A stretch of DNA of 43,735 bases, taken from positions 1,732,693 through 1,776,427 of the forward strand of contig NW_003144786.1 in the NCBI RefSeq assembly GCF_000003605.2, given 5' to 3'. Positions 2,895 through 42,488 of this stretch are shown here, piece after piece (the stretch's first letter is position 1; every line of letters begins with the position of its first letter). Source of the stretch: Saccoglossus kowalevskii (taxonomy: Eukaryota > Hemichordata > Enteropneusta > Harrimaniidae). A model generated the notes under the pieces. The model saw nothing but the letters and a program-made list of their open reading frames with translations. It was not told where the DNA came from and made no database searches. The position numbers and the translations under genes were made by a program.

Positions 2895-3490
2895 TCTATT
2901 AAAAGTGTACTATGTATTAACATCCACGCAGATGAGAACAGAACTATTTGTTTTAAATTGTTCAAAACAAAATGGATGAGACTTCTATTAGGGATGTGGC
3001 TTCTAAACTTAGTTAATATTTGGTATTTATGCGTATGGTTCACCTAGAAGTCAGATACACAGTCATACATGTAGCAGACACAACAGCATGGAATCAACTT
3101 TACTCACATTAGCTGCAGATCTCTGGCGTTTCAATGTCAGTTGATCTATCAGTAAAATATTTACTGAAAAATGTTAGCTTTGATGGTACCATTAATGGGC
3201 TTTCCTACTAAAAGTTGTTGAAAATCACTTTTTTGATTCTGTATATTTAGCCAAATCTCTTGGTGTGGGCAATTCAGTATACTACTTTTTGGCTTGTCGC
3301 TATTGTTCTAATAAATCGCTAACTTTCGATAGTGGACAGATTTTGTTTTTACTAGGATCTTCATTATCATTATCTATTAAAAGTGTACAATGGATGAGAC
3401 TTCTATTAGGAATGTGGCTTCTAATACAGTAGTTAATATTAATATTTAGTATTTATGCGTATGGTTCACCTAGAAGTCAGATACACACAT
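2895..3490. repeat. Direct duplication split by a 300-bp dispersed repeat
   Basis: 2895-3060 and 3371-3490 share tctattaaaagtgtac, atggatgagacttctatta and a long stretch ending cctagaagtcagatacaca. The second copy lacks about 70 internal bases. Between them sits copy A (3072-3370) of a dispersed repeat also found at 5243-5749. Confidence 0.85.
3072..3370. repeat. Dispersed 300-bp repeat, copy A (without insertion)
   Basis: Runs from tagcagacacaacagcatgg to actaggatcttcattatca. It matches 5243-5749 closely once the MITE in that copy is removed. Family unknown; no coding potential and no obvious terminal repeats. Confidence 0.9.
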
Positions 3491-5242: not shown

Positions 5243-5749
5243 TAGCAGACACAACAGCATGGAATCAACTTTACTCACATTAACTGCAGATCTCTGGTGT
5301 TTCAATGTCAGTTGATCTATCAGTAAAATATTTACTGAAAAATTTTAGCTTTGGTGAGTCCTGGTACCATTAATGGGCTTTCCTACTAAAAGTTGTTGAA
5401 AATTATAAAATCGAATCTCTGGGTGTGGGCAATTCAGTAATACTACTTTTTGGTTTGTCGCTATTATTCTGACAATTCGCTAACTTTCGATAGTGGACAT
5501 ACTGTAAAAAGACTACCGGTAATTTTCACTGGGTTTAAATTTCGCTGATTTACCATTTCAGGCATATTCAGTGGGTTTTAAATTCATGGTTTTATCATTT
5601 AGATAACGTGTTCTATGCTCAATTTTACATATTCACTGGGTTTTAATTTAGCGCATTTTCCAGTCAGCGAAATAAGCAAAATTAAAACCCAGAGAATAAT
5701 TAATCCTTTTACAGTATTTTGTTAGTTTTTACTAGGATCTTCATTATCA
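5243..5749. repeat. Dispersed 300-bp repeat, copy B (interrupted by a MITE)
   Basis: Same sequence as 3072-3370 with scattered substitutions. It is split by a 213-bp palindromic element (5502-5714). Copy A gives the empty-site sequence. Confidence 0.9.
5502..5714. mobile_element. MITE, CTGTAAAA family, copy 1 (TA target duplication)
   Basis: The ends are CTGTAAAA and TTTTACAG, flanked by TA on both sides (5500-5501, 5715-5716). Inside, a short motif like CACTGGGTTTTAATTT occurs four times, three in one direction and one inverted. The 213-bp length, TA flanks and lack of ORF suit a non-autonomous Tc1/mariner-type element. The empty site in copy A of the host repeat (gacagattttg) supports insertion at TA with one later substitution. 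Confidence 0.88.
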
Positions 5750-6165: not shown

Positions 6166-21245
<15,080 letters not shown>

Positions 21246-24600: not shown

Positions 24601-24813
24601 GGATTATGACGTATTTTACAATTTGTTCCATTTAGCATCTGTCTGATAATGGTGGCCATTTTTTACTCCTGTGTGCAATGTCTGAAGAACTGCTCATTGA
24701 AAATTGGTTCATTGATGCTCTGGGACAATGCGCAGATCTGATTAGTTTGGTTTAAAATCTGTGCTTATTTTAGTAATTAATTACCTAATTTACATAATAA
24801 TTAGTTGATTTTT
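21610..24813. other. Non-coding, probably CaMK1 intron continuing downstream
   Basis: AT-rich, with several 60-92 codon chance ORFs and no family match. I looked for the calmodulin-binding exon here and did not find it. Confidence 0.5.
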
Positions 24814-25321
24814 AGCTCCGCTGTCGACTTTGTCGAGCGGAGCTTATCATATGAGTGATTGTCCGTCGACGGTGTCCGTCGTCGTCCGTGTTTTACATTT
24901 TCAACTTCTTCTTGAAAACTACAAGCCTGAATGCTTTAATACTTGGTGTATATGTACCTTGGGTAGACCTCTCTTAGATTTGTTCATTTCATAATTTCCT
25001 AATTTTGTTGAATATTTTTGTCATTTTTGGTAAAAAGTGATATTTTTGACTTCTTGTTAAAAAATGCAAGGCCAATTGCATTGATATTACATGTATAGGT
25101 ACTACATGTGGACCTCTTTCAGATTTGTTAATTTCGTGGTGATATCTTCAATTATTTTTGTCATTGTTAGTGAAAAGTGATATTTTTGAATTCTTGTTGA
25201 AAACATAAAGTCCTGTTGCTTTGATACTATACATATTGTTCATTTTCTAACGATATTTTCAGTTCTTTAGTTTTAATGTGCATTGCTAACAGCGAAGCTA
25301 TCTCAGCTGACAGGCTGCTTG
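24814..25321 (+). mobile_element. Hairpin-ended element with core repeats, copy 1 (Helitron-like)
   Basis: Begins with the hairpin AGCTCCGCT...AGCGGAGCT (24814-24845 region) and then ttgtccgtcgacggtgtccg. The core units carry ggtaaaaagtgatattt (25029, and a variant near 25169). It ends acagcgaagctatctcagct then caggctgcttg. No ORF. T-rich DNA abuts the left end. Shares structure and sequence with 33580-34284 and 42094-42488. Confidence 0.8.
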
Positions 25322-25386
25322 TATAAATCTTTAGAGAGTCTGCATGCATGTTACTACCATGGTTTAGCTTTCCATCTATGAGAATA

Positions 25387-25425
25387 AGGGAAGAGTAGGA
25401 AATCAAACGGGCGGTTCACCGCGGT
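25387..25425 (+). repeat. Left terminal inverted repeat of the 2.24-kb transposon
   Basis: 39 bp ending in ACCGCGGT. It matches the complement of 27589-27627 except at its 30th base (t against g). Confidence 0.95.
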
Positions 25426-26570
25426 AATCACCGCGGCTCTCCGCGGTACACCGGGGAGAGCCGCGGACTGCTTATAATTAGGGGTCTCTACCGCGGTGGC
25501 CACCGATACCGGTTGCAACCGCGGTCGTAGGAAAGATGTGAAATACGTACTTAACAGTTTCCTTTGTGATTCCATGAGTCTTTGTTTCAAATACACATAG
25601 CTGTTTTTAAATCGAGCAGGTTACGAGCATCGCTGGCATGGAAATACTAAGCATATAGTAATATTATCGGCCCACGTATTTTATTAATATAAAAATCCAT
25701 AAGTCCAATACTGTATACGAATTGTTGTTGCGTGAAACAATGTTGTATTTTATGCATGTATTTATCACCAATTCCAAGAGTAAAAGTCGTAACTTTCGAA
25801 GGTACGAGTATTATGACTCGTCCATACATTGCACTTACGTTTGTTACACTTGAATAAAGTCTACCACACGAAAAGAATGTTATTTACGAAGTTTTAAATA
25901 GCCGAGCCTTCCTGATTCGAGCCTCTTGTTGATTTGACAACGGTGGGTATCATTAATGTTTATTCTTTGCCTGTATCGCATTCCAGACAAAAAGTTCAAG
26001 ATCGGTAAACAAGAAATGGACGAACTAAAATGTCTCCTATGTTTCACGTGCGACATGATTATTAAAAAAAACAGAGTTAAGCGGTCATGTACGTTCTATA
26101 AATCTAACCTTGCACACATAATCTTGTATTGACGTGTTTTTTTTTTGTTGGTCAAAAACGACGTTGCCTTTCAGTTAACTCTTCGCGAGAGTTTACCGAT
26201 TTTTTGAACAAATGTTAAGTAACTATATCGTTTTGCGTCAAACTGGGTGGCCCGAATTTAAATGTCAGTGCGTGAACTCATTGAGGTCATTGCCCATTGC
26301 CGCACGTAATTCAAACACGTGGTTATTAGAGTTCAGTCGAAATGTACGTGAATAATGCGATTAAAGTGCGCTGCGAGTTTATTATAGAAAAATTTAACAT
26401 TACGCATGATATTGTATGTTATTGTATGGTTACATATTCACTTTATTTCGAATAAAATAATTCACCGATGAGTCACAAGTATTTAAAATATTTTCTCGAC
26501 TTTCGTTAGACACCTGACTCCGGGACCTGACTATCTTTTTCAATGATTTACTAGTAAATGCGCCCATGTT

Positions 26571-26815
26571 TATATTTGCGTAATAATTACGAATGCAACG
26601 CATTATCAAGTCGGTAATATTGAAATATTCACAGACCCAATAGCCCGAGTTAGTGTCCCGACAATAATAAAAATAACTTAGTTTGCGTAATTATTATAAA
26701 AGTAATACATTGCAAAATTGAAATATTTAGAGCCCGTCAAATACTGTAAACATATTTGCGTTATTAGAAAAGCAGCACACTAAGTAAACGATGTTGAAAT
26801 ATTCAAAGCCAATAC
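26571..26815. repeat. Degenerate tandem repeat inside the transposon
   Basis: Three rough units. Each has atttgcgtaataatta-like DNA (26571, 26680, 26752) followed by attgaaatattcacagaccc-like DNA (26619, 26717, 26790). Unit length varies between about 70 and 110 bases. Confidence 0.6.
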
Positions 26816-26902
26816 AGAGTTGGATACAAGTTGTGTTATTACAGTACCGCCGGATATGATAACAAATTTACGAGATCGAAGCGCGGACCAAGAAAGAAAA
26901 GG

Positions 26903-26916
26903 GTTGCTAAGGTAAC
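26903..26916 (+). promoter_or_regulatory. RFX/X-box-like site
   Basis: GTTGCTAAGGTAAC is an imperfect palindrome close to the RFX X-box GTTGCCATGGCAAC (three differences in 14). It sits in the CpG-rich interior of the transposon. Similarity only; function is inferred. Confidence 0.35.
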
Positions 26917-27588
26917 GCGCCAGTTCAGTGCGTGACTTGGGGGTCAAACTTCGGTCAAAACACACTTGATGTCAGCAAGTTTCGCAACGTACTTGAAGTT
27001 CAATTGTGCCCCAAAATGATGTCGACGATCACTCAATTGTCGCAACGCATGTTGTACCAAGTCCATGATACACCCCGTTTCGACTTTGGCTTGCTTTTTC
27101 TTCTTAGTGCATGTTCTTGTTCACGTAAATGCGACCTCTCACCAATGTATTAAAACACTTTGAATTTATACTTATGCGTGATTATATTTGGTCTACGCGA
27201 AACATTAATCTTTCTAAACATTTTCTGAGACCATGCATGATATATATTCACAAAATAATGCGATCTTATTTTATATTATGTTGATCTCTACGTCTTTCTG
27301 GATCGTTTTGTGATTTTATTCCAAAGCTCAGGCAAATAAAATAATGTGAACTATTATAGACTAGTTTCCTAGCTTTTGGCTCAGCCAAATTGGTTTAATT
27401 TTTCATTAGAACTTTGTGATCCTTTTAATTTCCCAGTTCTTTGTGTTCATTAATGGTCTTGACAATAAGTGTGAATTGCTGTGCGAGCCCACCGCACACG
27501 ACCGCGGTAAACCGGGGTCATGGAATCTATGCATAAATTTGCATAAAATGCGGTCGACCGGCGAGCACCCACCACCACCGCGGTATTG

Positions 27589-27627
27589 ACCGCGGTGCAC
27601 CGCCCGTTTGATTTCCTACTCTTCCCT
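27589..27627 (-). repeat. Right terminal inverted repeat of the 2.24-kb transposon
   Basis: 39 bp beginning ACCGCGGT and ending cttccct, directly followed by the aata duplication. Confidence 0.95.
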
Positions 27628-27739
27628 AATACAAAAAGATGTTGAAATTTAGATGATGCAGTCTATGTAGGGTGTAATTACAAACAGTGTTAACTTACAT
27701 ACTAAATTTAGTTTTCAAGTAGATTGCAAATCATGTATA

Positions 27740-28160
27740 CGCTAACATAAAACTAGTCTGTGTCATGATTTCCTCTGTAATTTCAAGGTCACCATGTATC
27801 AAAAAAGTACATTGTCATAGGCGTAGTTAGCGACTTGTCTGTATTAACTCGCAATGTTTTGCTGTCCAGTTGAACGTATATGATGTAAAACAATTACAGC
27901 AATTACTTCCTGCGATGACTTCCCCTTTAATTACAAGGTCATCACGTAGAATGGGATGATGTCATTGACGCAGTCAGTGAATTGTCAGAACTCTACATTT
28001 TGCTGTCAAATCACCTACGTATACAAAGTAAAAAAATTACCGCAATTACTTCCTGCGATGACTTCCCCTTTAATTACAAGGTCATCACGTATCAGAATGG
28101 AACGATGTCATTGACGCAGTCAGTGAATTGTCAGAACTCAACATTTTGCTACTAAGACAT
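27740..28160. repeat. Tandem triplication, unit about 145 bp
   Basis: Units two and three share tgcgatgacttccccttta (27911 and 28054, period 143) and attgacgcagtcagtgaatt. An older, more diverged first unit starts near 27761 (tgtcatgatttcctctgtaa). Each unit has a caaggtcatcacgta-like word, part of which resembles a CRE half-site. Confidence 0.9.
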
Positions 28161-31100
28161 TTTAGTGACACCGGATTAGATGACCTTCCAGGTATGCATG
28201 CTGTTACAAGATTCCAGGAATATTTTCCCAACAGTAGCTAGGTCAAACCAAGTTACATTCATTGTTCATATCATGGTGATGACAAGTATTAAACCCCCCT
28301 CCCCCACCTAATGTGGCATGCAACTAACATGTACATGATTGATCCATCCGCAACTTTAGGATTTGTCACTTTGTTGGCAGTTTTACAAGGATTCTAAATA
28401 TATTCGTTTTTCATGTAAGCAGACACATGATGTAGAATAATTAGAATATTTGTCATATTTGACATAGACGTAATATTATTAACATGATTCATATTTGTGT
28501 ATTGAAAATGGTTATTAATTGTGGACCACATTGTAGCGACATTGTAGCCTGACTTGGATCATCTACGTCATCTATATCTAATTTCTGTTTAATCACTCTT
28601 TCATATTATACATTAGAAGACCACTCACTATCCGACCCTGGATGAACTGTCTGACCTTTGACCCATTCCAACTCATTTATGTATGTCATCACTTTATACT
28701 TGGTGCATCTTTCTTGTTAGATAACTAATAATTATGTTCACAGAGTAGGCCAATCCTGTCCACTCAAACATTTCTGCAAATTTTAACTTTGTTTTATAAT
28801 TATTCTTATTATCATATTTAATTAATTTTAAGTAGTATCGTAGATAACGAAAATCCGATTAACATTTCTGTAATGATTAGTCTGTAAGGAAAACTAGACG
28901 TACATGTATGTATTGTGCTTTTTAAATTCTATTCTGAATCTAATGAGAAATAAATATGTTGAATATCATAATGGGAGGTATGGCGTTGGTATTAGAAGTG
29001 GAATGAGATCTGCTGTGAACCGCAATTCTTGTGACAAGACATAATAAATGTGTCTGGGTCAATTTTTTCAACATCTACAACTCCTCACATTATGGTGACA
29101 TGTTTTGTCAAACAAAAATTTTTAGTATGATTCGCGTTCATTTATTGTATCCAAACTACGCATAGTCAGGTGGGTTTTTGGTTTACTTTCTGTTTTAAAC
29201 GGTTCATTATTTTTTACTTGTATTTTTAATTAATTGTAATAAATATTTCCAATAAATAATATTTATTTTGTCATTTTGAACTGCCCAAGCTTGTGTTAGT
29301 CCAGGTATCATATTTCTTTATTTTAGAAGCGACAAGCACTATGTGGTGCAGTGTATTTTCATAGATTTAAAGATTATCAAACTCAAAAACTAGCATTCAA
29401 CCATTTATACTAACTAACCTATTTAAAATGTTATTTTAATTTGGGCATGCACTTCCAATAGAGCACATACAGTATGTCTTTGATCACACTTGAAACAGCT
29501 GCATAGAAGACGAATAATTGACATGGCCTCCTGCAACTGACAAGTGTATATTATCCCTAATCTCATGTGTGGAGAGATTAAACCTGCTGGTCATCAGCAT
29601 CAAAGAAAACATTACATCCAGTGGTTATCATCATCATCATCTGAGCACTGCGTGGTCATTCATTACCAATCCTGTATGTCAGCATTTCAAGTCTAATGTA
29701 ATTTATAGATTGCAGTGGTATATGATACACTGGCATAACTTCAACTTCAAATAATAGTAAATCAGATAAAATTTATTCAGATGTTTGAGACTTTCATGTG
29801 CATCTGTTTATGTTTACGGTATAATTCATTGCCATTAGTACCCGACCTATATTCATTCAACGTAACACTTTACATTTTTACATTTCACGAAATATACCTA
29901 TATGTAAATAAGGAAAATTATGTCAAAAATTAACAAAGTAACTATAGAAATATACTTAAAAAAAACACTATTTGGTGGGAAAAATGTTTGCTTTAAAGCC
30001 AGATCCTAACACGACTTAGTACATGTAGCTGCCCAAAATGATTCAGGTTTTGGAAGTTAAGTGTTTATTTAATAGACAGCTTTTTTTTCATGTGGATAAC
30101 AATTTTGCTGATGTGAATCGGAAGCAGCTGAGCAGTCATGCATACAGTGATGATATTTGTGTTCTGGTGCAGGATGCATCAAGTAAATTCTTGCCATCAA
30201 CATTTCTAACATTTTTTCTTTCAAATCATCCATCATTTTAAGGAATGTCAAATATTGATGATGATTTTCAATGTAGTATAGATTTTTAACTTGATGTTAC
30301 CAGTATGTGAAGTTCTTGATGCATGTAGCCAATGCGCAGCAATAAACAAGATCTGTATAACTGTCAGATTTTTAGTGTAATCTTAATCGTGTAACAGAAA
30401 AAAAAAGAAAATGTACCCTATTTCTGATTCATGCACCTTCATCACTCTCAGCACACAGTAGTTCTTTTTTATGACATTATGCTTTTGTTTTTATTACCTC
30501 TTTTTGTTTCATGTTTGTATTATGAAAAGAATCATGTATGTCTATTCATTACTAATATAAGGTTATAGTACCCGGTATTACTGTAGCATTACTATAAATT
30601 TAACTTAAATATACCGGTATATATTTATATTATATTATTGTATTCAATCTATTTATAATATTCAATTTACAATAAATTAAAATGGAAATATTTCTTTGAT
30701 TTGGGGGGATCAAGTTTGTAGTGCTACTCCTGTGTATCAAGATACTCATTGATTATGTTATGACAAAACATATAGTTCTCCAAAAGGTCTGTTATCTAAT
30801 CCGGGACTGAGTTGACACATGTCAAAACATGTGTGTGAACAACTCATATTCACATCAATATAACTGCTCTTTGAATCTTTCTTTGCCATTCATTTGACTC
30901 ATAATAAATACCATAACAGAAAGTAGAATCAGACAAATAGGTGTACCGTTTGCCATGTTTGGGTCAAAAAACAGATCTACAAATGAGGGCATGATTTCGG
31001 CTTGAGCCGAGTGGTTACCAAATGGGTCCTGATGAAGGTTGTGACTAAGGTGAACACAATTGTTTTAATCCCTCTGCAAAGAATTAAAAATTTCACCACA

Positions 31101-31570
31101 TGTCAAAATCTCATAACGTGAACACAGGTATGTCCTTAAAAAACACATGAACATTTAATATTGTATAGCGTTGAAATCATACTAATTACTTTGTATATTT
31201 GAGTTCTCAGTCCCTAAGGATGCCTAAGGCATCTGAATTCTGACATGCATCAGACCATTCAATGTTGTCTCTAACTAAAGAATGTGGATCATACACATGT
31301 TTTTCTACATAAATATCTGCATTTAAAATGTATTCCCTTGAGAAGTCAGAAGCTATAAATGAATACTTGGCACATGCTCATTTCATTATCTTTTCAATAC
31401 TTCTTCATGCTTTGGCCTACTTATTATTGTTGTGTGAACAGCTGTTTAACTATAGTTTAATAAATTATTTTATGGTAGCCATGACCAAGTAAGTCCAGTT
31501 TTATGCTTCAAACTATCAAAACATAAGATTATATTAACACATGTATAAAATACTGATTACTTAGATTAAG
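28161..31570. other. Non-coding AT-rich stretch
   Basis: No supported gene. Several 60-80 codon ORFs in both strands have low-complexity or unrecognised translations. I see no transposon ends. Confidence 0.5.
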
Positions 31571-31951
31571 CCTGAATAGGCGATTTTCTGTACAATTGCG
31601 AGATCTCGCGAGATGTATGAAAAACGCGCATCGAACGTCTGCCGCAAAAATCGAACGATTTGATTTTGAACTAGAATTTCTTTATTTCGTAACTCACATC
31701 GACCGGCCGATCTTCGACAGAGGAATATTGCTTTCGAATACCCTTACTTAATCAAAATTGCCTTTCATCAAATGTGGACAGCACATTATTAAACATGGAA
31801 ATGTCCCCCAAAATACTTCGCGTTTGTCGAATCCCACGCGATGTTTGACGCCACTACGACGCTATGACCTTTGTTTGTCCTGTTTTTACGTTCGATTTCA
31901 CGCATAATGCGTGATTCTCGCAGTGAATGGAAAATGGTCTATTGCACCTGG
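31571..31951. other. CpG-rich island-like segment, possible inserted element
   Basis: This 380-bp segment has dense CpG (gcgagatctcgcgagatg, gaccggccgatcttcg, cgcgatgtttgacgcc) within CpG-poor DNA. Its ends are weakly inverted: cctgaataggcgatttt on the left against the complement of aaaatggtctattgcacctg on the right. TCTCGCGAGA at 31604-31613 is a known promoter motif in animals (Kaiso/ZBTB33-type). It could be a CpG-preserving transposon copy or a real promoter. No transcript start or ORF follows. Confidence 0.5.
31898..31914. promoter_or_regulatory. Perfect 17-bp palindrome
   Basis: TCACGCATAATGCGTGA reads the same on both strands around a central A/T. It lies in the CpG-rich segment. A dimeric DNA-binding protein site is a plausible but untested reading. 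Confidence 0.5.
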
Positions 31952-33579
31952 CTGAAGTTAGAAGCATATTCATATTCATACTGGTGTGAACGTATCCCAT
32001 GGGCAGATACGCATAACGTAAAATAATTGTAATGGTAGGTGTTAACTTGGGTTGGTAATAACGCTAGAGTCCCCCAACTTACATTTAAAAACATAACCAT
32101 CAGAGTAAACCAAAAACATCAAACAAAATCAAATGACGTGCAATCTACTTAACTATGAATTGACGTTATATTCAACCCAAACAATGTGTTGACTCGCATC
32201 AATCAGATCTGATGTACACGCAGGTGGTATGTCAACAACAAAAACAAATTAGTGATTACATTTGCTGTTTAGCCTCCCTAACCGACAAGATAAACATTTG
32301 TAAACGTGGATATATATACTGGTGATCAATTAAAATCAAGTTGGTAATCTCATCAGCTGTCTAGGACCCCCAATGACTAGATAAACATATGGTACTTTGT
32401 GAAAATATACTGCTAACTGTCTGAATTGCTTGATATTTCATAATTGGACAACATTTTAATTTTGGGTTCAATAACTTTGAATAATGATGTAAATTTAATC
32501 TCGGGAGTATTATTTAGAAAATATTTCCTGACAATCACCAAGATATTGTGTTGCATTTTTGAGTGAACAAATCATAAAACCCCTTTATGTCACAGCATTT
32601 TTTCAGTTGCTTCTCAAAATAGGTAGGTGAATGTGTATTTTGAGCTCCATGCAGGTATTTGTATAATTATATAAACCTTTGCATCGAATAATTTAGCAAG
32701 TGAGACAACAAACTTCTTTATGATTTACCGTACAACAAATCACCAAAAACCACAGTGAAGTAACTTGGTTGAGGTTGAAAATGTTGTCTTCATTTGATGT
32801 TCTATGATTACCTCAGTAAGATTTCAATTATGACAAACACTATTTATTGCTCAAGGAACACCCAGTAGAAATTGTCATGGTAACAATATCTTTTTTGCAA
32901 TTACACAGGTACCATGCAGATGTACGTAATGAAACTTTTCTGTCAGTTACTAAGCATTATTAACATTTTTCAACATTAGTTACCACAGTGAAAATTTCAA
33001 TTAGTTTATAATGGTAAAAGTTATTAATACCCATGTACCTTGCAAGTACTATCACCATAGCAACATCATTTGAAGAAACATAATTATGCAAATAAGCCAC
33101 AAATAAATGGCATGTCCTTGGTTGATTCAATAATTGTATAGTACTTTTGATAATAATTCTGTTGCTACTAGCCTTCGCCAATAATTGATATATCAACTTT
33201 TTAGCTCGTCTGAAAAAATATGTATATTGATTCTTATTTTTTTTTAGAAAAATATAAAACACATATTTTTTCTTTTCTCCTAAGGCTTACAGATTGTTGG
33301 ATTATTCTAAGTCTGAAAGAATTTCAAAATTAATGAGCTTAGAGATATAAAATAGTATTGTTTGTTGGAAATTTAATCTTTTTAAAAAAAATGTTATTCT
33401 TGTATTTAAACAAACCAGCATAATCAATGAAAAAGCTCTGGTAAAAGCATCTTGTGAAATTGGTCTCAAAATTGTTTCTAGCTGATTTTGTTTAATACAT
33501 TAAATGCCTGTATTACACCAGATGAATTTTTAATGCACATATTTCTGTGGTCTAGGTCTAGAAGAAACATTTGTTTTTT
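31952..33579. other. Non-coding stretch
   Basis: AT-rich, with no supported gene or repeat. A 100-codon minus-strand ORF at 32960-33262 is Lys/Asn/Tyr-rich and matches nothing I know. Confidence 0.5.
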
Positions 33580-34284
33580 AGCTCCGCTGTCGACTTTGTC
33601 GAGCGGAGCTTATCATATGAGTGATTGTCCGTCGTCGTCGTCGTCCGTCGTCATTTTTGGTAAAAAGTGATATTTTCGACTTAAAAACCCAGAGTGCAAT
33701 TGCTTTGATATTACATATATAGGTACTACATGTGGACCTCTCTCAGATTTGTTCATTTTGTGATGATATCTTCAATTCTCTAATTTTGGTGAATATTTTT
33801 GTAATTTTTGGTAAAAAGTGATATTTTCGACTTCTTGTTAAAAACCAATAGTTCAATTGCTTTGATATTACATATATAGATACTACATGTAGACCTTTCT
33901 CAGATTTGTTCATTTTGTGATGATATCTTCAGTTCTCTAATTTTGGTGAATATTTTTGTCATTTTTGGTAAAAAGTGATATTTTCGACTTCTTGTTGAAA
34001 ACTGTATGTCCGATTGCTTTGATATTACATATATAGGTACTACATGTGGACCTCTCTCAGATTTGTTCATTTTGTGATGATATCTTCAATTCTCTAATTA
34101 ATTTATTTTGGTGAATATTTTTGGTATTTTTGGTAAAAAGTGATATTTTCGACTTCTTGTTAAAAACTGTAAGTCTGATTGCTTTGACACTATTCATATT
34201 GTTCATTTTCTAATGATGTTTTCAGTTCTTTAATTGAAATGTGCATTGCTAACAGCGGAGCTATCTCAGCCGATAGGCTGCTTG
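33580..34284 (+). mobile_element. Hairpin-ended element with core repeats, copy 2 (longest)
   Basis: Head hairpin AGCTCCGCTG...GAGCGGAGCT, then a gtcgtcgtcg run. Four core units start with ggtaaaaagtgatatttt at 33659, 33810, 33967 and 34132, giving spacings of 151, 157 and 165. The tail reads ctaacagcggagctatctca and closes with a small hairpin cagccgataggctg and cttg. It is flanked by T-runs on both sides. Length 705 bp, non-coding. Confidence 0.88.
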
Positions 34285-34935
34285 TTTTTTGTTTTGTTTT
34301 TTCAGAATTTTAGAAGAAGAAAAATTTGGTTTTCCTAAATAATTAAAATAAAAGCACATGATCAATTATATGTGCATTTATTTTATAAAAAGGTAACTTT
34401 AATATGGGTATCTATTTTATCATAGACCCTCTAGGTCTATGATTTTATGAAAAGATATTGATCACTAACTTAAAATTTTGCTTTGTATATATCCATCGAC
34501 CACTTTTTGGGTAAAATACCAGTACCTGCCTGGAGATGAGTCTTACTGATTTGTTAACAAATATATTTAATCTTCCCTGATTTAAAATTAAGAATCTCTG
34601 ATCTGACCCACTATGAATTTAAAACAAAAAATGTCAGAAAATAATCAGATATGTTAAATGACATATTTCTGAAACATTTGACAAAAATACACACCAATTT
34701 AGTAGCAGTGTTTTGCATTCTTTAATTATTTTTTTGCAGTATAAATTTATTTTGAACATTTTTAATTGATCAGTGATTTATGAAAATAAGTGACAAATTT
34801 TGATAATGCATGAATCCTATGCAAACCCAAACCTGTCCTACATGATGATCTCTGTGTAAACTGGAAACCTGTCTAAACTGAACACTTTGTAAACTGTCTG
34901 AGCTGAGCTCTGCATCCACTGAAATGAAGATGAAG
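34285..34935. other. Non-coding stretch leading into the minisatellite
   Basis: AT-rich. From about 34850 degenerate versions of the minisatellite unit appear (tgtgtaaactggaaacctgt, ctttgtaaactgtctgag). Confidence 0.6.
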
Positions 34936-35785
34936 CCTGTGTAAACACAAATCTGTGTGAGATGGACTGTGTAAACACAAATATCTGTGTAAGATGAACC
35001 CTGTGTAAACACAAATATGTATGTAAGATGAACCCTGTGTAAACACAAATCTGTGTATTAAGATGGGCCTTGTGTAAACACAAATATGTAAGATGGATCC
35101 TGTGTAAACACAAATCTATGTAAGATGGACCCTGTGTAAACACAAAATATGTGTAAGATGAACCCTGTGTAAACACAAATCTTATTTAAGATGGACCCTG
35201 TGTAAACACAAATCTGTGTAAGATGGACCCTGTGTGTAAACACAAATCTATGTAAGATAAACCCTGTGTAAACACAAATCTGTGTAAGATGGACCTTGCG
35301 TAAACACAAATCTGTGTAAGATGGACCCTGTGTAAACACAAATCTGTTTAAGATGGACCCTGTGTAAACTCAAATCTATGTAAGATAAACCCTGTGTAAA
35401 CACAAATCTGTGTAAGATGGACCTTGCGTAAACACAAATCTGTGTAAGATGGACCCTGTGTAAACACAAATCTGTTTAAGATGGACCCTGTGTAAACACA
35501 AATATATTAAGATGTACCCTGTGTAAACACAAATCTATGTATAGATGAACCCTGTGTAAAGACAAATCTGTGTAAGACTGACCTTGCGTAAACACAAATC
35601 TGTGTAAGATGGACCCTGTGTAAACACAAATCTGTGTAAGATGGACCCTGTGTAAACACAAATCTGTGTAAGATGATCCCTGTGTAAACACAAATCTATG
35701 TAAGATTAACCCTGTGTAAACACAAATATATGTAAGATGTACCCTGTGTAAACACAAATCTGTGTAAGATGAACACAGTGTAAAC
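34936..35785. repeat. 32-bp minisatellite, about 27 units, each with a forkhead-type site
   Basis: The consensus unit is gatggaccctgtgtaaac followed by acaaatctgtgtaa. Units vary from 28 to 36 bases. I count 24 units with GTAAACA, the forkhead core. Higher-order order is visible: a three-unit block (aaaccc, then acctt, then gcgtaaacac) recurs near 35262-35345 and 35388-35470. Minus-strand ORFs across it (up to 120 codons) come from the stop-free repeat read in rotating frames and are not genes. Confidence 0.97.
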
Positions 35786-36472
35786 CAGGGGGGGGAGTTG
35801 CATGACACGATTGGTTGAAATACTCGTCTCATTTGCATAAATTAATATTCATGAGCAATGACAAATTCATCTTTTCAGTAAAATTGTGCCAAAATGCTTT
35901 CCGATAGCATACATGTTAGTTCTAAATTGATTGATTCTATCGTTACGAGCTGAAAAAATAATCGGAAAAACGATGTAAAGGTAATTTTTGAGACACATTT
36001 TCGATCAGGCTCCAGCTAACTATTGAAAGTAAACACAGGTTTTCTCTTTACCATGATCTTAGCAAGTTATGAAATTCATGGAGAATGCAGAGGCACGTTT
36101 ATATTTCACTCTAGTACTATTGCTCAAAATTGCTCAAAATGTTTTCGGTGCATTTCAATGAACCACAGTGTGTGTGCATGCGCAATTTGAACGCAATAAA
36201 ATCACGCGTAGAACTCGGGCTCCAGCAAGAAATTGTGGCGTCAAACTGGTTGTTGGTTAAATTGTTTTGCAATAGACATAATTTTGGAGCCTGTATTTGT
36301 CTATAAAATGTTTCTAAGTTTTGTTGAGGATTATTCTGTAAAGGAATGGCTGAAATTATTTTATCTGTTCGTAAACGGGATGTTGTTGCTTGACGATGGG
36401 CTACGGACGACTGACGTCGAAACGTTCCATTCAGATCAGATGGCACCCTCTCATGCCAATCCCCCCCCCCAG
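35786..36472. mobile_element. 687-bp hAT-like insertion inside the minisatellite
   Basis: GTGTAAAC occurs just before (35778-35785) and just after (36473-36480) the segment. The minisatellite unit interrupted on the left resumes on the right (acaaatctga). The segment begins CAGGGGGGGGAG and ends CCCCCCCCCCAG. Inside, gttgcatga and the complement of tcatgccaat form imperfect terminal inverted repeats. An 8-bp duplication and a CAGGG start fit the hAT superfamily, though the right end is CAG rather than CTG. No transposase is present; a 121-codon minus-strand ORF (36117-36482) is not recognised. Confidence 0.75.
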
Positions 36473-36480
36473 GTGTAAAC

Positions 36481-38270
36481 ACAAATCTGAAGGAAGAAGG
36501 ATTAATTGAGAATTACACCAAGCTTAGGTGGCCCTGGATGCAAATGAGCTTTCCTGATATTACATCCCATAATATAACAAGTTATTTGATACCTATTATC
36601 ATGGTTAATCCTTTAAAGTGGCAATGCATGTGCGCATCAACTTAAGAAACCAAGATAAGAATGTGATTAAGAATGTGATGTCAGATAACAGGTGATGATT
36701 TTCTTTACTTCACCATTGACCCTGACTATGATAGATTTCACAGGGCTGTAAAATGCAAAGAAAATTGTTGTCTTTGTTGATGGTTAACATCTTATGAGTG
36801 AAAAAAATTAGATTTGATTCTCATCATGGTCCACATTTTATGATTAAAAAAAAAGAAATTTGAAATTTCCATTCTATAATTTCTCAGATACAACATCATT
36901 TGTCTGGGGAAAAAAATTCAGCAGGAAATTTATTTGTTTCACTTCTTTCTTGTTATTCAGTCTATACATACATGTACGTATTCATCCTTGTCTTGGAAAG
37001 ACGATTGTAAATGTATGCAACTGCAATTGATTTTAATTCTGCACATCAGTGAGATGTAGTTACAGATTACGTACACCGGCGATTAGAATTGAAAGATTCT
37101 CTATCTATATAGGATTTTAATTATATTAATGTCTGACTAGTATAATTGTAGTATGGTAGGGTGATGGCAGTATGCAGCTTCTTTCCATGCTTTCACTTAG
37201 ATTGGAGCATTCCAATTGGAGTTAGGGGTGAGAGGTACATTTCAAGAGGGATTTTCTTATATATATATATATATATACATTTGTTCAAATAATATTCATG
37301 AGATATGTCTACGTCATAACCTCGTTAAAGGTTATTAGCATATTGTGTATGCAGTGCGCATGCTTTGGGCTCTTTTTTCGTATTCCACAACGCGTGCGTC
37401 AATTGAAGATTACTTTCCATGCATCGTATTATTCAACACTGTCAATGAGGTTTCACCATATTGATGGTGCTGAAGGTTGTGTTCGTATTCGAAACCCAAA
37501 TATAAGCGACACTACCAGATATATACAACAGCTAACAAGCCACACCAACCCAGTGACAGCTGAGGATTTGTACACATGCACTCCCACCATGCCATACACT
37601 GTAATATGCAATTACAATTCTGGTTTCCCCATAACTCTGTAAACAACACACAGACATCACTCTTGGTTCAGGCGCACGGATCACTTCATGGGGGATGGGG
37701 GTATATAGTGCATATGCTGAATTTCAAACAAGCAATGCAATTTTGTTGATCATTGATTTTGCTATTTGATAGAACAATAGACATGCAACGCCCAAATATT
37801 TGAAATAGTTTTTAAAAGATAGCTGAGTGAACATGGGGGGGGGGGGTTACAAAAGGGGGCAGCTAGAAGAACTACATAAATACAGTTGAGAAACGTGGAT
37901 TAACTGAAAAAGAGCTGGTGTGTGTGTGTTTCACTGAGTAAATATGACCATGACATAGTTTTTTAACTCCCAAAATATTCCCTAAAAAAATATTTCGCTA
38001 TAGAAAAAAATAATTTGCATGTTCGTTTATCTTGTTTAGGCAGAACAGTGAGCAAAATTTCAGAAACTGACACGAGTTAGTTGAGGGGATTTTTAACGAT
38101 ATGAATTGAAGACCCGGATGAGTAGTGTAATGCAATTCTGTATTTTTGGAACATTTTAAATTTGTCCTACCTTCCTGTTTGTTGCCCTTAGATCATGCAA
38201 TATGTGCAAGTGCACAAACGATAAATGCACAAACGCTGTCAATTTAGAAATCAGGAATTACTTGGATTAA
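36481..38270. other. Non-coding stretch with one unrecognised 114-codon ORF
   Basis: 37298-37642 (plus) is the longest non-repeat ORF of the window. Its translation ends in TRYIQQLTSHTNPVTAEDLY and onward, with no domain I know. Neither splice sites nor codon bias convinced me. It follows an (AT)9 tract (37259-37276). A run of 12 G lies at 37835-37846. Confidence 0.4.
37259..37276. repeat. (AT)n microsatellite
   Basis: Nine AT dinucleotides in a row. Confidence 0.9.
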
Positions 38271-38767
38271 TTAGTCCCCGTTTGGATGCAGTCCGAAAAT
38301 GGGGACTTGTGTTTTGACCTCTGTGCATCCGTGCTTTCGTGTGTGTGTGCGTCAGACCCTGTATCTTAGAAATGCCTGGACCAATCACATTTAAACTTCG
38401 CACATACATCATACATGGTATTATACATATGCACATCAATTTGTTTCACGATCTGATTCAAGATGGCCGAATGGCGAATATTTTTGTACTGAAAAATCAG
38501 CAAAATTAAGCATTTCTCGGCTGTTTACAGATGGATTTTGTTCAAACTTGGTATACACATTGGACATTACGGGTTCCTGATGCACGTCATTTTATTTTTC
38601 AGATCGGATTCAAAATGGCAGACTGGCAGCCATTTTGTTTGAATGAATGGGCTTCTAGAGCCATATCTCTGACATGCTTTGACTGAATATGTTCAAATTT
38701 TATATATTCATTATACATCATGTTATAGATATATACATGTATTCAAAATGGCTGATTTTGTTTTAAT
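38271..38767 (+). repeat. AGTCCCC-hairpin dispersed repeat, longest copy
   Basis: Opens with the hairpin AGTCCCC (38273-38279) / GGGGACT (38301-38307), then gtgcatccgtgctttcgtgt. Degenerate units follow with gatctgattcaagatggccg, ggattttgttcaaacttggt, gatcggattcaaaatggcag and attcaaaatggctgatttt. This plan (hairpin head, GTCC-rich link, degenerate tandem body) is the same as in the AGCTCCGCT family. The right end is unclear. Truncated relatives are at 8847, 19730 and 20936. Confidence 0.7.
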
Positions 38768-41700
38768 TAATACTGTTCCAGAGCAATATTTCTCAATATA
38801 GACAAGTACTCGCTTGACTATCAGATACAAATGTCAATCATTTTAATGTTAAACAATCATCATAATCATATTCCTGATATGATTATATTCCAGCTATATT
38901 ACTATAAACAAAACTATATATCTTAAATTTGATAACTAACGGGAACTGTGCCATGCATGGCTTGTTAATTACAACTTAACATTCAAAATATGATGCAGTA
39001 AATTTCAGCTATTTTGATGTTACCGGATACTAGCGATAAGTTCAGTGTTATATATATGAGTGTGCCTACTGACTTATGCCTTTTGAACTTATACAAAGTG
39101 TATTTATAGTTAACAATTGGGAAAGGCCATCAGCACTCTTGCTAGTTCAAGTTCTAGATTGTAAGTTAAAAAGTACGAAACAGGGTTTGTTATCTATCAA
39201 TTATTATAAAATAAAATGAAAGGATTATAGTTTATGAGCAAATATGTCATATGAAACTGTTACTGTTGAAAATGTTTCAATTTAAGAGTTATTTTAATTT
39301 GGTGTAATACGCACAAAATAAACAAATACTTTATTATTACTTGGTACGTGTTCTCAGATCAATCAGCAAATGTTTTCACTGATGGATCTTCAATTTTTCT
39401 CATCATCACTGTTTTGATATTTTGTAAATTCCTGTAATTTATTTGTAATTTTGAACAAAATGAACATAATTTTCTATTGCCTGCTAATCATGATTGCCAT
39501 TTTTGACAAAGATTTGTTTTTTGAAAGCTGACAAAAGTGGATCAGAAGTGTGACATACATGTAATGACTGAGTTGTCACCATTCTCCACTGATAGTGCCT
39601 GTCTGACAATACATTAATTACTGTACAATTTTTTTAGCTAGCATGTTCAGATAATATAGCTATGAGAAAATATATTATTACCATGAGGTTGTATGCATTT
39701 TAATAGCTCAATTAAAATTGAGTTAATTGATGCCATTGAGCTATTTGCCAAAATGGTATATATTTTTAAAGTATTGTACTCTGCATTATAGTTTGGCTAT
39801 ATTGTATAGTTAGGCTCATCTAAACTGAAGGTAATTTCTTTGCCACAACTATTAGAAGATATTAATTCCATCAGGGACTCAATGAACCATAATCTTTGTG
39901 AAAATATTTTCATGAAATGATCAGTGCAAAAGAAATAATTTTTTTTTTTTTATACTGATATATGTCCTGTAGGGCCTCCTAATGTCGAAAATACAATTGG
40001 AATGTCATATATTATTTCTTGGAATTTGAAATTAAATTGAGATTTACAGCCATAATTTAATTATCAAATAATATTGAAATATCTGATAATTGTTTTTTGA
40101 GAATTGCACTTTTGGCAAAACTGACTTGTAGATGAACTAATTTTTAACTCAGATTTACAGCATTTATGTCAGAATATTGTTTGTATGGCTAGGAAAAAAA
40201 ATGAGTAACACAGGATGATGGTTGGTTAAATTGTGGTTAGATGTTAACACATATACTTTAATAATACTTGTAATGCCCTTCCAGTAGCTCCCATGCCAAG
40301 GCCATACAAAATATCCATTATGATATTTAGAACCTGGTGGCTTGATACTGTTAATACTATATTACCACTCATTGAGAATAAAAATGGAATTACTTACTGT
40401 AGGGAAGCATAGATGTGTGTATGACACACAAAACATGATCTTAGTTCATAACCATGAAAGTATGTGCTTTATATACATTTAAAATATAGTTATGAAATAT
40501 AGTTATGAAAAGTATAAAGACCAGTAGTGGTTGGGGAGAGGTGGCTTTATTAATAATGGTGTCACTGTACTGGTGGTACTTAATAAGTAACTTAATTTTT
40601 TTACTTTATTAGTCACTGAGTCACTGTATAAAGTTATATTTAAGTCATTCCTTTCAGTAGTATTGTATGATTAACTCATTACTATCACTAACTATGTATG
40701 ACATAGTTTAAAATATTATATTTCATCAAATAACCCCTCGCTTCTTGCCAAGACTAAATAATTTAGATAAACAGGGAGGTTGTAGGAAGAGGTAAACACA
40801 GAATAATCCACTGCTGGTGAAATGTCTAGATCAGCTGCAGTAAAAGTAGTGGCAATTATACAGTACACTCATTCTGTGTATGTAATATTGTTTTTCTGTT
40901 TTTCCTTTCTTTAGCAATCACTGCTTGACTTTTCATCCCTCTATCTGACCCTTCACCTTTTTTATCTGATCTTCTGCCTAACACTCTCTTTGACACCAAA
41001 GATTCCCACCATATTTCGCCAGGTTTTATGATATGCAATGTAGGTTAGGTTTCAAAGACATGCTGTCATGCATGCTTTTATTGTGACCGTTGCTCTGTAT
41101 TTTTTGCATTACTCATAATTGTTGATGTGTGTCAGGGTGAGAGCTAGAAAAAAAGTGTTGTATTATATGTACATTGGTTTGCCTTGTTTCTTTCTGCTCC
41201 TGTACCAGACCTAATAAAAGTACAAACATGCACTCATTCCAATTGGCTATGTCTAATCAACTTTTTTAGCATGTTGAATTAATTTAAACAAGTTTTATTA
41301 CTGTTTGAACTTCTTTTAAATCATTGTACATTTATAAAGACGGATACTGATGTTTCATCTAAATCCTCCCTGGCATGCATGCCGTAGTCATTTGTGCAAA
41401 TTATAAAAAGGAATTTTACTCTGACCTCTTATTAATGGAATATTGCTCTATAAATCCTAGTTCATAAAGGTTGACTTTTAGGATAATTTATCATCTGCAT
41501 AGTGTCCTGTTTTATCATTAAGAGAGTTTGCTATCTGGAATTATGAAAGATTTACATGATCTTATGCTTTGGCTGCAGCACGTTACTGCCTATTAAAACT
41601 ACATTAATGTATTGCTCCTGTAGCCATTAGGGAAATTTAGTAGATGTTTTCGTAGATTACGTCTTAAACTTGGAGAACTGTTGCTAGGATAAAACATGCA

Positions 41701-42093
41701 ATATTCTCGTTTTTGTGTGTGTGTGTGTGTGTGTGGTTCCAATCATCAGCATGCAATTGTAGAGCTACGTGGAACATTAAGGTTTTGTCGTTTATTTTGC
41801 CTCTGTGCTCATTCTTTGCATTATACTGCATTTCACAGGTGGATAATAGGAGAGATTGGTTGCTAGGCAATGAATTTGAAGATGTCTGCGTTAGTGTTAT
41901 TAACATATTAAGGAGTATTAGATACCCAGAAAAACATTGTTTCCCATACTTGGTGCTTCACATTACAGGATAGATAATACTAAAAAATCAGGGTCACCAT
42001 TACCCTGCAATTTTTATTATGTTATTGAGAACTCTGTAATATACAATAAATGTATATGCTGAATGTGTCTAGGCATTCATACTTTTTTTTTTT
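38768..42093. other. Non-coding AT-rich stretch
   Basis: No supported gene. It contains an 11-bp perfect inverted repeat (aatagctcaat 39702-39712, attgagctatt 39735-39745) and a GT microsatellite. Candidate acceptors at 40914 and 41748 do not lead into CaMK1-like sequence. Confidence 0.5.
41715..41734. repeat. (GT)10 microsatellite
   Basis: Ten uninterrupted GT dinucleotides after a T-run. Confidence 0.95.
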
Positions 42094-42488
42094 AGCTTCG
42101 CTGTCGACTTTGTCGAGCGGAGCTTATCATATGAGTGACTGTCCGCCGGTGTCTGTCGCCTGTGTCAACTTTTTACTTTTTTGACTTCTTCTTGAAAACT
42201 ACAATTTTTATTGCTTTGATACTTGGTGTATATGTACCTTGGGCAGACCTTTCTTAGATTTGTTCATTTCGTGATGATATCTTTTTAATGAATATTTTTG
42301 TCATTTTTGATGACAAGTGATATTATTGGATTCTTGTTAAAAACCGCAAATCTGATTGCTTTGATGTTATACATGTAGGTACTACAGATATACCTATCTC
42401 ACATTTGTTCATTTTCTAATGATATTGAGTTTTTTAATTGAAATGTGCATTACTAACAGTGGAGCTATCTCAGCCGAAAGGCTGCTTG
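42094..42488 (+). mobile_element. Hairpin-ended element with core repeats, copy 3 (shortest)
   Basis: Head AGCTTCGCTG...GAGCGGAGCT and tail acagtggagctatctcagcc gaaaggctgcttg. About two degenerate core units. Preceded by a run of 11 T (42083-42093). One substitution in each outer arm (cttcg, gtgga) weakens the inverted match between head and tail. Confidence 0.85.

Follow-up and report, generated by a model that had tools for sequence, protein, structure and literature searches.

What are the three similar hairpin-ended repeats that recur within one 43,735-nucleotide stretch of the genome of the hemichordate Saccoglossus kowalevskii (NCBI RefSeq assembly GCF_000003605.2, contig NW_003144786.1, positions 1,732,693 to 1,776,427 of the forward strand; this whole stretch is hereafter the window)? 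A preliminary description had placed copies with a common head, link, core and tail at positions 24814–25321, 33580–34284 and 42094–42488, and had read them as non-autonomous Helentron-like elements whose centre consists of tandem repeats and whose targets are rich in T. The three copies, here named E1, E2 and E3, were confirmed at these positions, and the reading was supported by their structure, by copies elsewhere in the genome and by an empty insertion site. We conclude that E1–E3 are almost certainly separate insertions of one abundant family of non-autonomous Helentrons (HINE, DINE-1 type) in this animal genome.

All three copies lie on the forward strand and measure 508 bp (E1), 705 bp (E2) and 395 bp (E3). 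From 5' to 3', the element is composed of a T-run, an 11-bp 5' subterminal inverted repeat (subTIR; AGCTCCGCTGT), a complementary inverted repeat (IR; AGCGGAGCT), a link, a GTC-type microsatellite, the core of tandem units, the 3' subTIR (ACAGCGGAGCT), a stem-loop, CTTG and a T. The heads (24814–24844 in E1, 33580–33610 in E2 and 42094–42124 in E3, the last with one change in the subTIR) are predicted to form a hairpin, in which a 9-bp subTIR/IR stem folds in all three copies, with one wobble pair in E3. The microsatellite occupies approximately positions 24861–24888 in E1, 33627–33653 in E2 and, in degraded form, 42140–42166 in E3. Within the tails (25289–25321, 34252–34284 and 42456–42488), the complement of the subTIR is set back from the 3' end by 22 nt in each copy; compared with the complement of the copy's own head, it has 1 mismatch in E1, none in E2 and 2 in E3. 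It is followed by a palindrome (CAGCC/GGCTG in E2), which gives a 5-bp stem with a 4-nt loop ending 4 nt short of the 3' end in all three copies, and by the terminal CTTG. The tail motif ACAGCGGAGCT of the preliminary description was exact in E2 alone, with one difference each in E1 and E3. The return of the head motif in inverted form at the tail had been regarded there as unusual; it is in fact the subTIR that is diagnostic of Helentrons and HINEs (PMC4067079 and PMC7492417, both drawn on in part here and below).

The terminal sequences were compared among the three copies. Pairwise identities were 52/52, 50/52 and 50/52 over the first 52 nt, and 60/66, 55/66 and 60/66 over the last 66 nt. 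In blastn searches, the E2 head as the query gave E-values of 1e-24 and 2e-20, and the E2 tail gave 2e-12 and 7e-13. The window contained 457 repeated 31-mers, many from other repeats, and none of 20 first-order Markov resamplings contained any; no fourth copy was detected in the window by a relaxed scan. The 500-bp flanks were unrelated among the copies, the best match being 25 bp long, inverted and of E-value 0.004, and because the same ends are set in unrelated flanks, E1, E2 and E3 are taken as separate insertions. Between the left and right flanks of E2, weak matches of 19 bp (E 0.015) and of 57 bp at 72% (E 0.051) were detected, and the junction was not reached on both sides. The three copies share one orientation and are spaced 8.5–8.8 kb apart, as might be expected if a satellite-bearing locus had undergone segmental duplication and no transposition had taken place. 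However, with unrelated flanks and with the same head spread over the whole genome, this explanation is hardly credible and was rejected.

Based on a search of the genome (572,110,611 bases in 4830 contigs), the 31-bp head with at most two mismatches was found 1815 times (892 forward and 923 reverse), and the reversed control pattern was not found at all. The element family is abundant in the genome, with well over a thousand copies. As the preliminary description had proposed, copies with the same ends were collected. A search with E1 as the query, in which 40 of 3983 candidates were scored, gave 54 matches, and 41 loci were examined: these included 35 distinct copies with both ends and two heads without a tail, the other loci being below the thresholds. 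With the addition of E2 and E3 and the removal of locus L040 (10 head mismatches), we obtained a sample of 36 copies, which is biased towards E1-like copies. The core was not a criterion for a second sample, which consisted of the first 30 loci listed for the exact head and contained 31 heads; 21 heads with a tail remained after removal of nine that had no tail within 1.5 kb and of one that led into a second head. The element patterns gave no match in the phage collection, viral_contigs (exact head/link, tail) or prokaryote genome_contigs (exact head), where animal genomes are not expected. Six element stretches searched in the texts of papers, with supplements and figures outside the search, returned only papers that were unrelated by title and start of the abstract, and the listed matches of a 9-mer alone were all unrelated by title.

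Next to the head, T was present at positions −5, −4, −3, −2 and −1 in 36, 35, 34, 36 and 34 of the 36 copies, respectively, and at position −6 in 11. At the right junction of the same copies, T was found at +1 in 35, at +2 in 31 and at +3 in 21, and all 21 right ends of the exact-head sample started with T. In the window, the T-runs 5' of E1, E2 and E3 consist of 5, 6 and 11 Ts. Classical Helitrons have a CTRR 3' end, and a classical Helitron was rejected here on the CTTG end and T junctions of all three window copies. The target of classical Helitrons is A-T (PMC4067079). Because the left junction shows a near-constant block of five Ts preceded by an ordinary variable base, these five Ts probably belong to the element (24809–24813 for E1, and likewise the five Ts preceding E2 and E3). 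As part of the element, they would place the true 5' end five bases upstream of the coordinates given above. Boundary Ts have been described as part of the element, and as variable in number, in other families (PMC4067079).

Empty sites were searched with 57 joined flanks (36 plus 21), of which six containing core units were set aside. Within the locus sequences compared, five of the remaining flanks (from loci L011, L017, L018, L023 and L071) matched across the junction. The L071 flanks identified a close empty site at L030, with 92.7% identity over 248 bp. The empty site reads GCATCTTG-T9-ATGCGG and the filled site reads GCATCTTG-T6-(element)-T7-ATGCGG, so that at the junction the two sites differ by four Ts and no other base has been gained or lost. 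This L030 site sits in a dispersed repeat with the sequence GATGGC...GGCAGCCAT...TTTTG. At L029 (minus strand, approximately 900–2330), a HINE of seven unit hits is located inside the core of a second HINE. The unit next to the filled one has the sequence GTC-T6-GG, and the filled unit has GTC-T6-(element)-TTT-GG, with T in place of the initial A of the head. Since L071/L030 and L029 differ in T number alone, no fixed target duplication, which the preliminary description had named as a refuting observation, is seen. At these two sites nothing but Ts is duplicated, and insertion takes place at TT or T-rich sequence, as in HINEs. The empty site raised our confidence in the HINE assignment slightly, from a level that was already very high.

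The junctions also bear on a different origin, in which the copies are foldback or MITE-like (miniature inverted-repeat transposable element) DNA transposons moved by a DDE transposase through cut and paste. An 11-bp inverted repeat is indeed common to head and tail, and DINE-1-like elements were once annotated as MITEs (PMC4067079), but the repeat is asymmetric, lying 22 nt internal on the 3' side of the element; at the close empty site nothing is duplicated except Ts, and E1 permits one T at most. A MITE with a fixed-length duplication was therefore rejected, since the right repeat lies 22 nt inside the end and only Ts vary; the empty site largely refutes it, and its probability is negligible.

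Two repeats of the window are connected with these insertion sites. The repeat GATGGC...GGCAGCCAT...TTTTG is present in both orientations at 19860–20023, 20974–21064 and 38444–38640, and also at L030 and L047. The segment 21372–21616 belongs to a repeat that elsewhere in the genome carries the HINE insertions L011 and L017.

The coding capacity of the copies was analysed together with that of candidate partner loci. In the three copies we found no stop-to-stop open reading frame (ORF) of 70 amino acids or longer and, in six frames, no Pfam match. Pfam scans of the whole window, covering six frames with stops as X (18 stretches) and ten ORFs, gave protein-kinase matches alone, and no match to Rfam was obtained in the window. 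The three copies code for nothing. Elsewhere in the genome, the Rep family Helitron_like_N (PF14214) gave 8 matches above the cut-off, from 11/11 candidates, compared with 0/14 in control genomes. An 8-kb stretch at the best Rep locus, scanned in three frames of one strand with stops read as X, carries Helitron_like_N, PIF1 and Pif1_2B, followed, in the reading frame of the helicase, by Exo_endo_phos. Rep, PIF1 helicase and endonuclease at one locus are the Helentron set. The preliminary description had proposed to seek a Rep/helicase element with the same ends. Rep/PIF1/Exo_endo_phos coding DNA is present in the genome, but at the Rep loci examined and in their surroundings these ends were not detected.

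Such a result could also be viewed in terms of Helitron2, the autonomous form of which has no endonuclease domain. The copies would then be rolling-circle elements of the same type served by a Helitron2-type enzyme and, strictly, no Helentron derivatives. Like the present family, Helitron2 combines asymmetrical terminal inverted repeats with a palindrome at each end (PMC4067079), and the search around the Rep loci examined revealed no partner whose ends match. However, the best Rep locus carries Exo_endo_phos in the helicase frame, and the GTC microsatellite and head IR match families assigned to Helentrons (PMC7492417). We therefore consider service by a Helitron2-type enzyme to be very improbable.

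Published HINEs with the features of E1–E3 are described in PMC4067079, PMC7492417 and PMC7992393, the last also used in part. The structural features of HINEs were all found in the present family: subTIRs (approximately 11–15 bp in the class), IR, 3' palindrome, microsatellite with central repeats, T-rich insertion, absence of duplication and absence of coding. The further defining feature is an autonomous Helentron partner with the same ends, and none was detected at the Rep loci examined. Compared with Cg_HINE of the Pacific oyster, as described in PMC7492417, the family is alike in the 5' subTIR of 11–12 bp with a complementary IR, in the microsatellite (GTCY, GTCC or GTCK in several oyster elements), in central repeats of 140–180 bp in arrays mostly of up to five, in a conserved right end of approximately 60 bp with the 3' subTIR and palindrome, and in T-rich sites without target duplication; in oyster, the autonomous partners are likewise not linked. 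This likeness rests on description, not on sequence, and the first, internal and last unit classes reported below are not mentioned in the parts of the published description drawn on here (PMC7492417). HINE-Mo and DINE-1 share the subTIRs, microsatellite, central repeats, 3' stem-loop, TT preference and boundary Ts, and DINE-1 additionally shares the IR nested with the 5' subTIR (PMC4067079). In contrast to the present family, the HINEs of mites lack a separate IR, and their subTIRs are palindromic; their subTIR starts 2–4 nt from the 5' end, compared with 5 nt here if the Ts are counted (PMC4067079). Among bivalve elements, the Pearl family has short arrays of central repeats of approximately 160 bp, and MgE and DTC84 have a comparable architecture and are discussed together with HINEs; Pearl is cited from the discussion in PMC7492417 alone, and MgE and DTC84 likewise from that paper alone.

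Several observations weigh against the Helentron assignment. At least five Ts precede the head in just 25 of the 31 heads of the exact-head sample, and copy L035 of the first sample has no T at its right end. The four remaining empty sites outside HINEs (L011, L017, L018 and L023) are just 72–80% alike to the joined flanks, so that single bases are not fixable, and clear duplication was not seen in them. The 3' subTIR of mite HINEs is located 38–60 nt from the end (PMC4067079), compared with 22 nt here. The head (at most 9 or 10 mismatches), the tail (at most 10–12) and the 11-bp subTIR (at most one) were absent from the eight Rep loci L072–L079, of 2.0–3.6 kb each, and the same end patterns were not found in 16 kb around the best Rep locus, part of which reads N, or around three further Rep loci, where 9 kb was covered.

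The core has a period of 157 bp in E2 (Tandem Repeats Finder), which corrects the approximately 155 bp of the preliminary description. A profile made from the E2 units and run against the window detected nine units at E ≤9e-13, all within the three copies, and the next match had an E-value of 1.5. The cores extend over 24895–25276 in E1 (first-type, internal-type and last-type units), 33657–34239 in E2 (three internal-type units and one last-type unit) and 42173–42440 in E3 (first-type and last-type units), giving totals of approximately 2.4, 3.7 and 1.7 units. The earlier numbers of two, two to three and four fit these totals as a set, but had been given in the wrong positional order. The marker proposed for the core unit was intact in four E2 units and one E1 unit, and altered in one unit each of E1 and E3. 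The first unit of E1 and that of E3 begin downstream of the marker and lack it. In the tree of the nine window units, the first units of E1 and E3 grouped together (FastTree 0.997, IQ-TREE 100), as did all three last units (0.90 and 93), and the internal units gave no resolved order. The last unit has a 29-column gap common to E1 and E2 and not present in E3. The internal units of E2 were 91–95% alike, and 85–87% alike to the internal unit of E1; this hints that the three internal units of E2 may have arisen within E2, but they are not united in the tree (support 35–69).

The relation between unit type and position was analysed in the genome samples. The 36 copies gave 123 unit hits, 2 to 7 per copy, a few of these hits being fragments of one unit. 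A 5'-shortened unit of the first type opens the array in 35 of the 36 copies, E2 being the exception. For 111 of the 123 units, the nearest unit in another copy was of the same position class, compared with a mean of 41 and a maximum of 56 in 200 label shuffles. Mean between-copy identity in these 36 copies was 0.93 for first, 0.90 for internal and 0.87 for last units, and 0.75–0.81 across classes. In the exact-head sample, the first type was present in 29 of 31 cases and a last-type ending in 20 of 21, the unit hits again numbering 2 to 7. The units thus fall into distinct classes according to their first, internal or last position, and the position rule is well established in the 36 copies; array length therefore varies in internal units.

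In the exceptional copy E2, the microsatellite joins an internal unit directly at the GTC that elsewhere closes the preceding unit (GTCATTTTTGG), and GTC is common to the microsatellite and the unit end. E2 looks as though it had lost its first unit at this short shared sequence. It is also conceivable, although rather doubtful, that the terminal units are part of a module recognized by the enzyme, that the internal units are expandable cargo, and that the GTC microsatellite serves as a recombination point for array length. A further arrangement was seen at L024 (1001–1791), where a single head is accompanied by two complete tails. The head is followed by a first unit, a last unit and one tail, after which come a first, an internal and a last unit and the second tail. 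This locus may represent either a nested insertion minus a head or read-through of a first tail.

With E1–E3 assigned to a non-autonomous Helentron family, movement of the family by a Rep/helicase/endonuclease would follow the rolling-circle scheme. An autonomous Helentron enzyme of this kind would recognize the paired ends, namely the 5' subTIR/IR hairpin and the 3' subTIR with the terminal palindrome, and would nick at the T junction. One strand would be copied by rolling-circle replication and inserted at Ts, without duplication of other target bases. The core grows or shrinks as internal units are gained or lost, the terminal units remaining tied to the ends.

The surrounding window contains further features. 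Exon-like pieces of a CaMK1/CaMK1D-type kinase, the sole coding matches in the window, are present on the forward strand at 11876–12088, 18627–18719, 19554–19634 and 21159–21245, the later pieces having been located by motifs. E1–E3 lie 3' of the last kinase piece that was detected, and hence either within a later intron or downstream of the gene. Just 3' of E1, inverted repeats of 64 bp (25373–25436 and 27578–27641) are 86% complementary and 2.1 kb apart; because both hold GGGAAGAGTAGGAAATCAAACGGGCGGT, a further terminal-inverted-repeat element of approximately 2.3 kb is likely here. The segment 5499–10830 has inverted repeats of 199 bp (92%) located 4.9 kb apart, with outer ends ATACTGTAAAA and several CACTGGGTTTTAATTT-like motifs near the ends, and no Pfam match was found inside it. 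In addition, 34927–35785 is an array of approximately 27 copies with a 32-bp period and a 128-bp higher-order period, and 3013–3487 and 5243–5499 contain blocks repeated approximately 2.2 kb or 0.4 kb apart with 92–100% identity.

The family of E1–E3 is an ordinary one, its kind being known from oysters, mites and flies, and it leaves the known understanding of the movement of such elements unchanged. It provides a clear example of non-autonomous Helentrons spreading satellite-like repeats through an animal genome, and its many copies, in which the number of units ranges from 2 to 7 or more and first, internal and last units are distinct, form a natural series for array growth and shrinkage.

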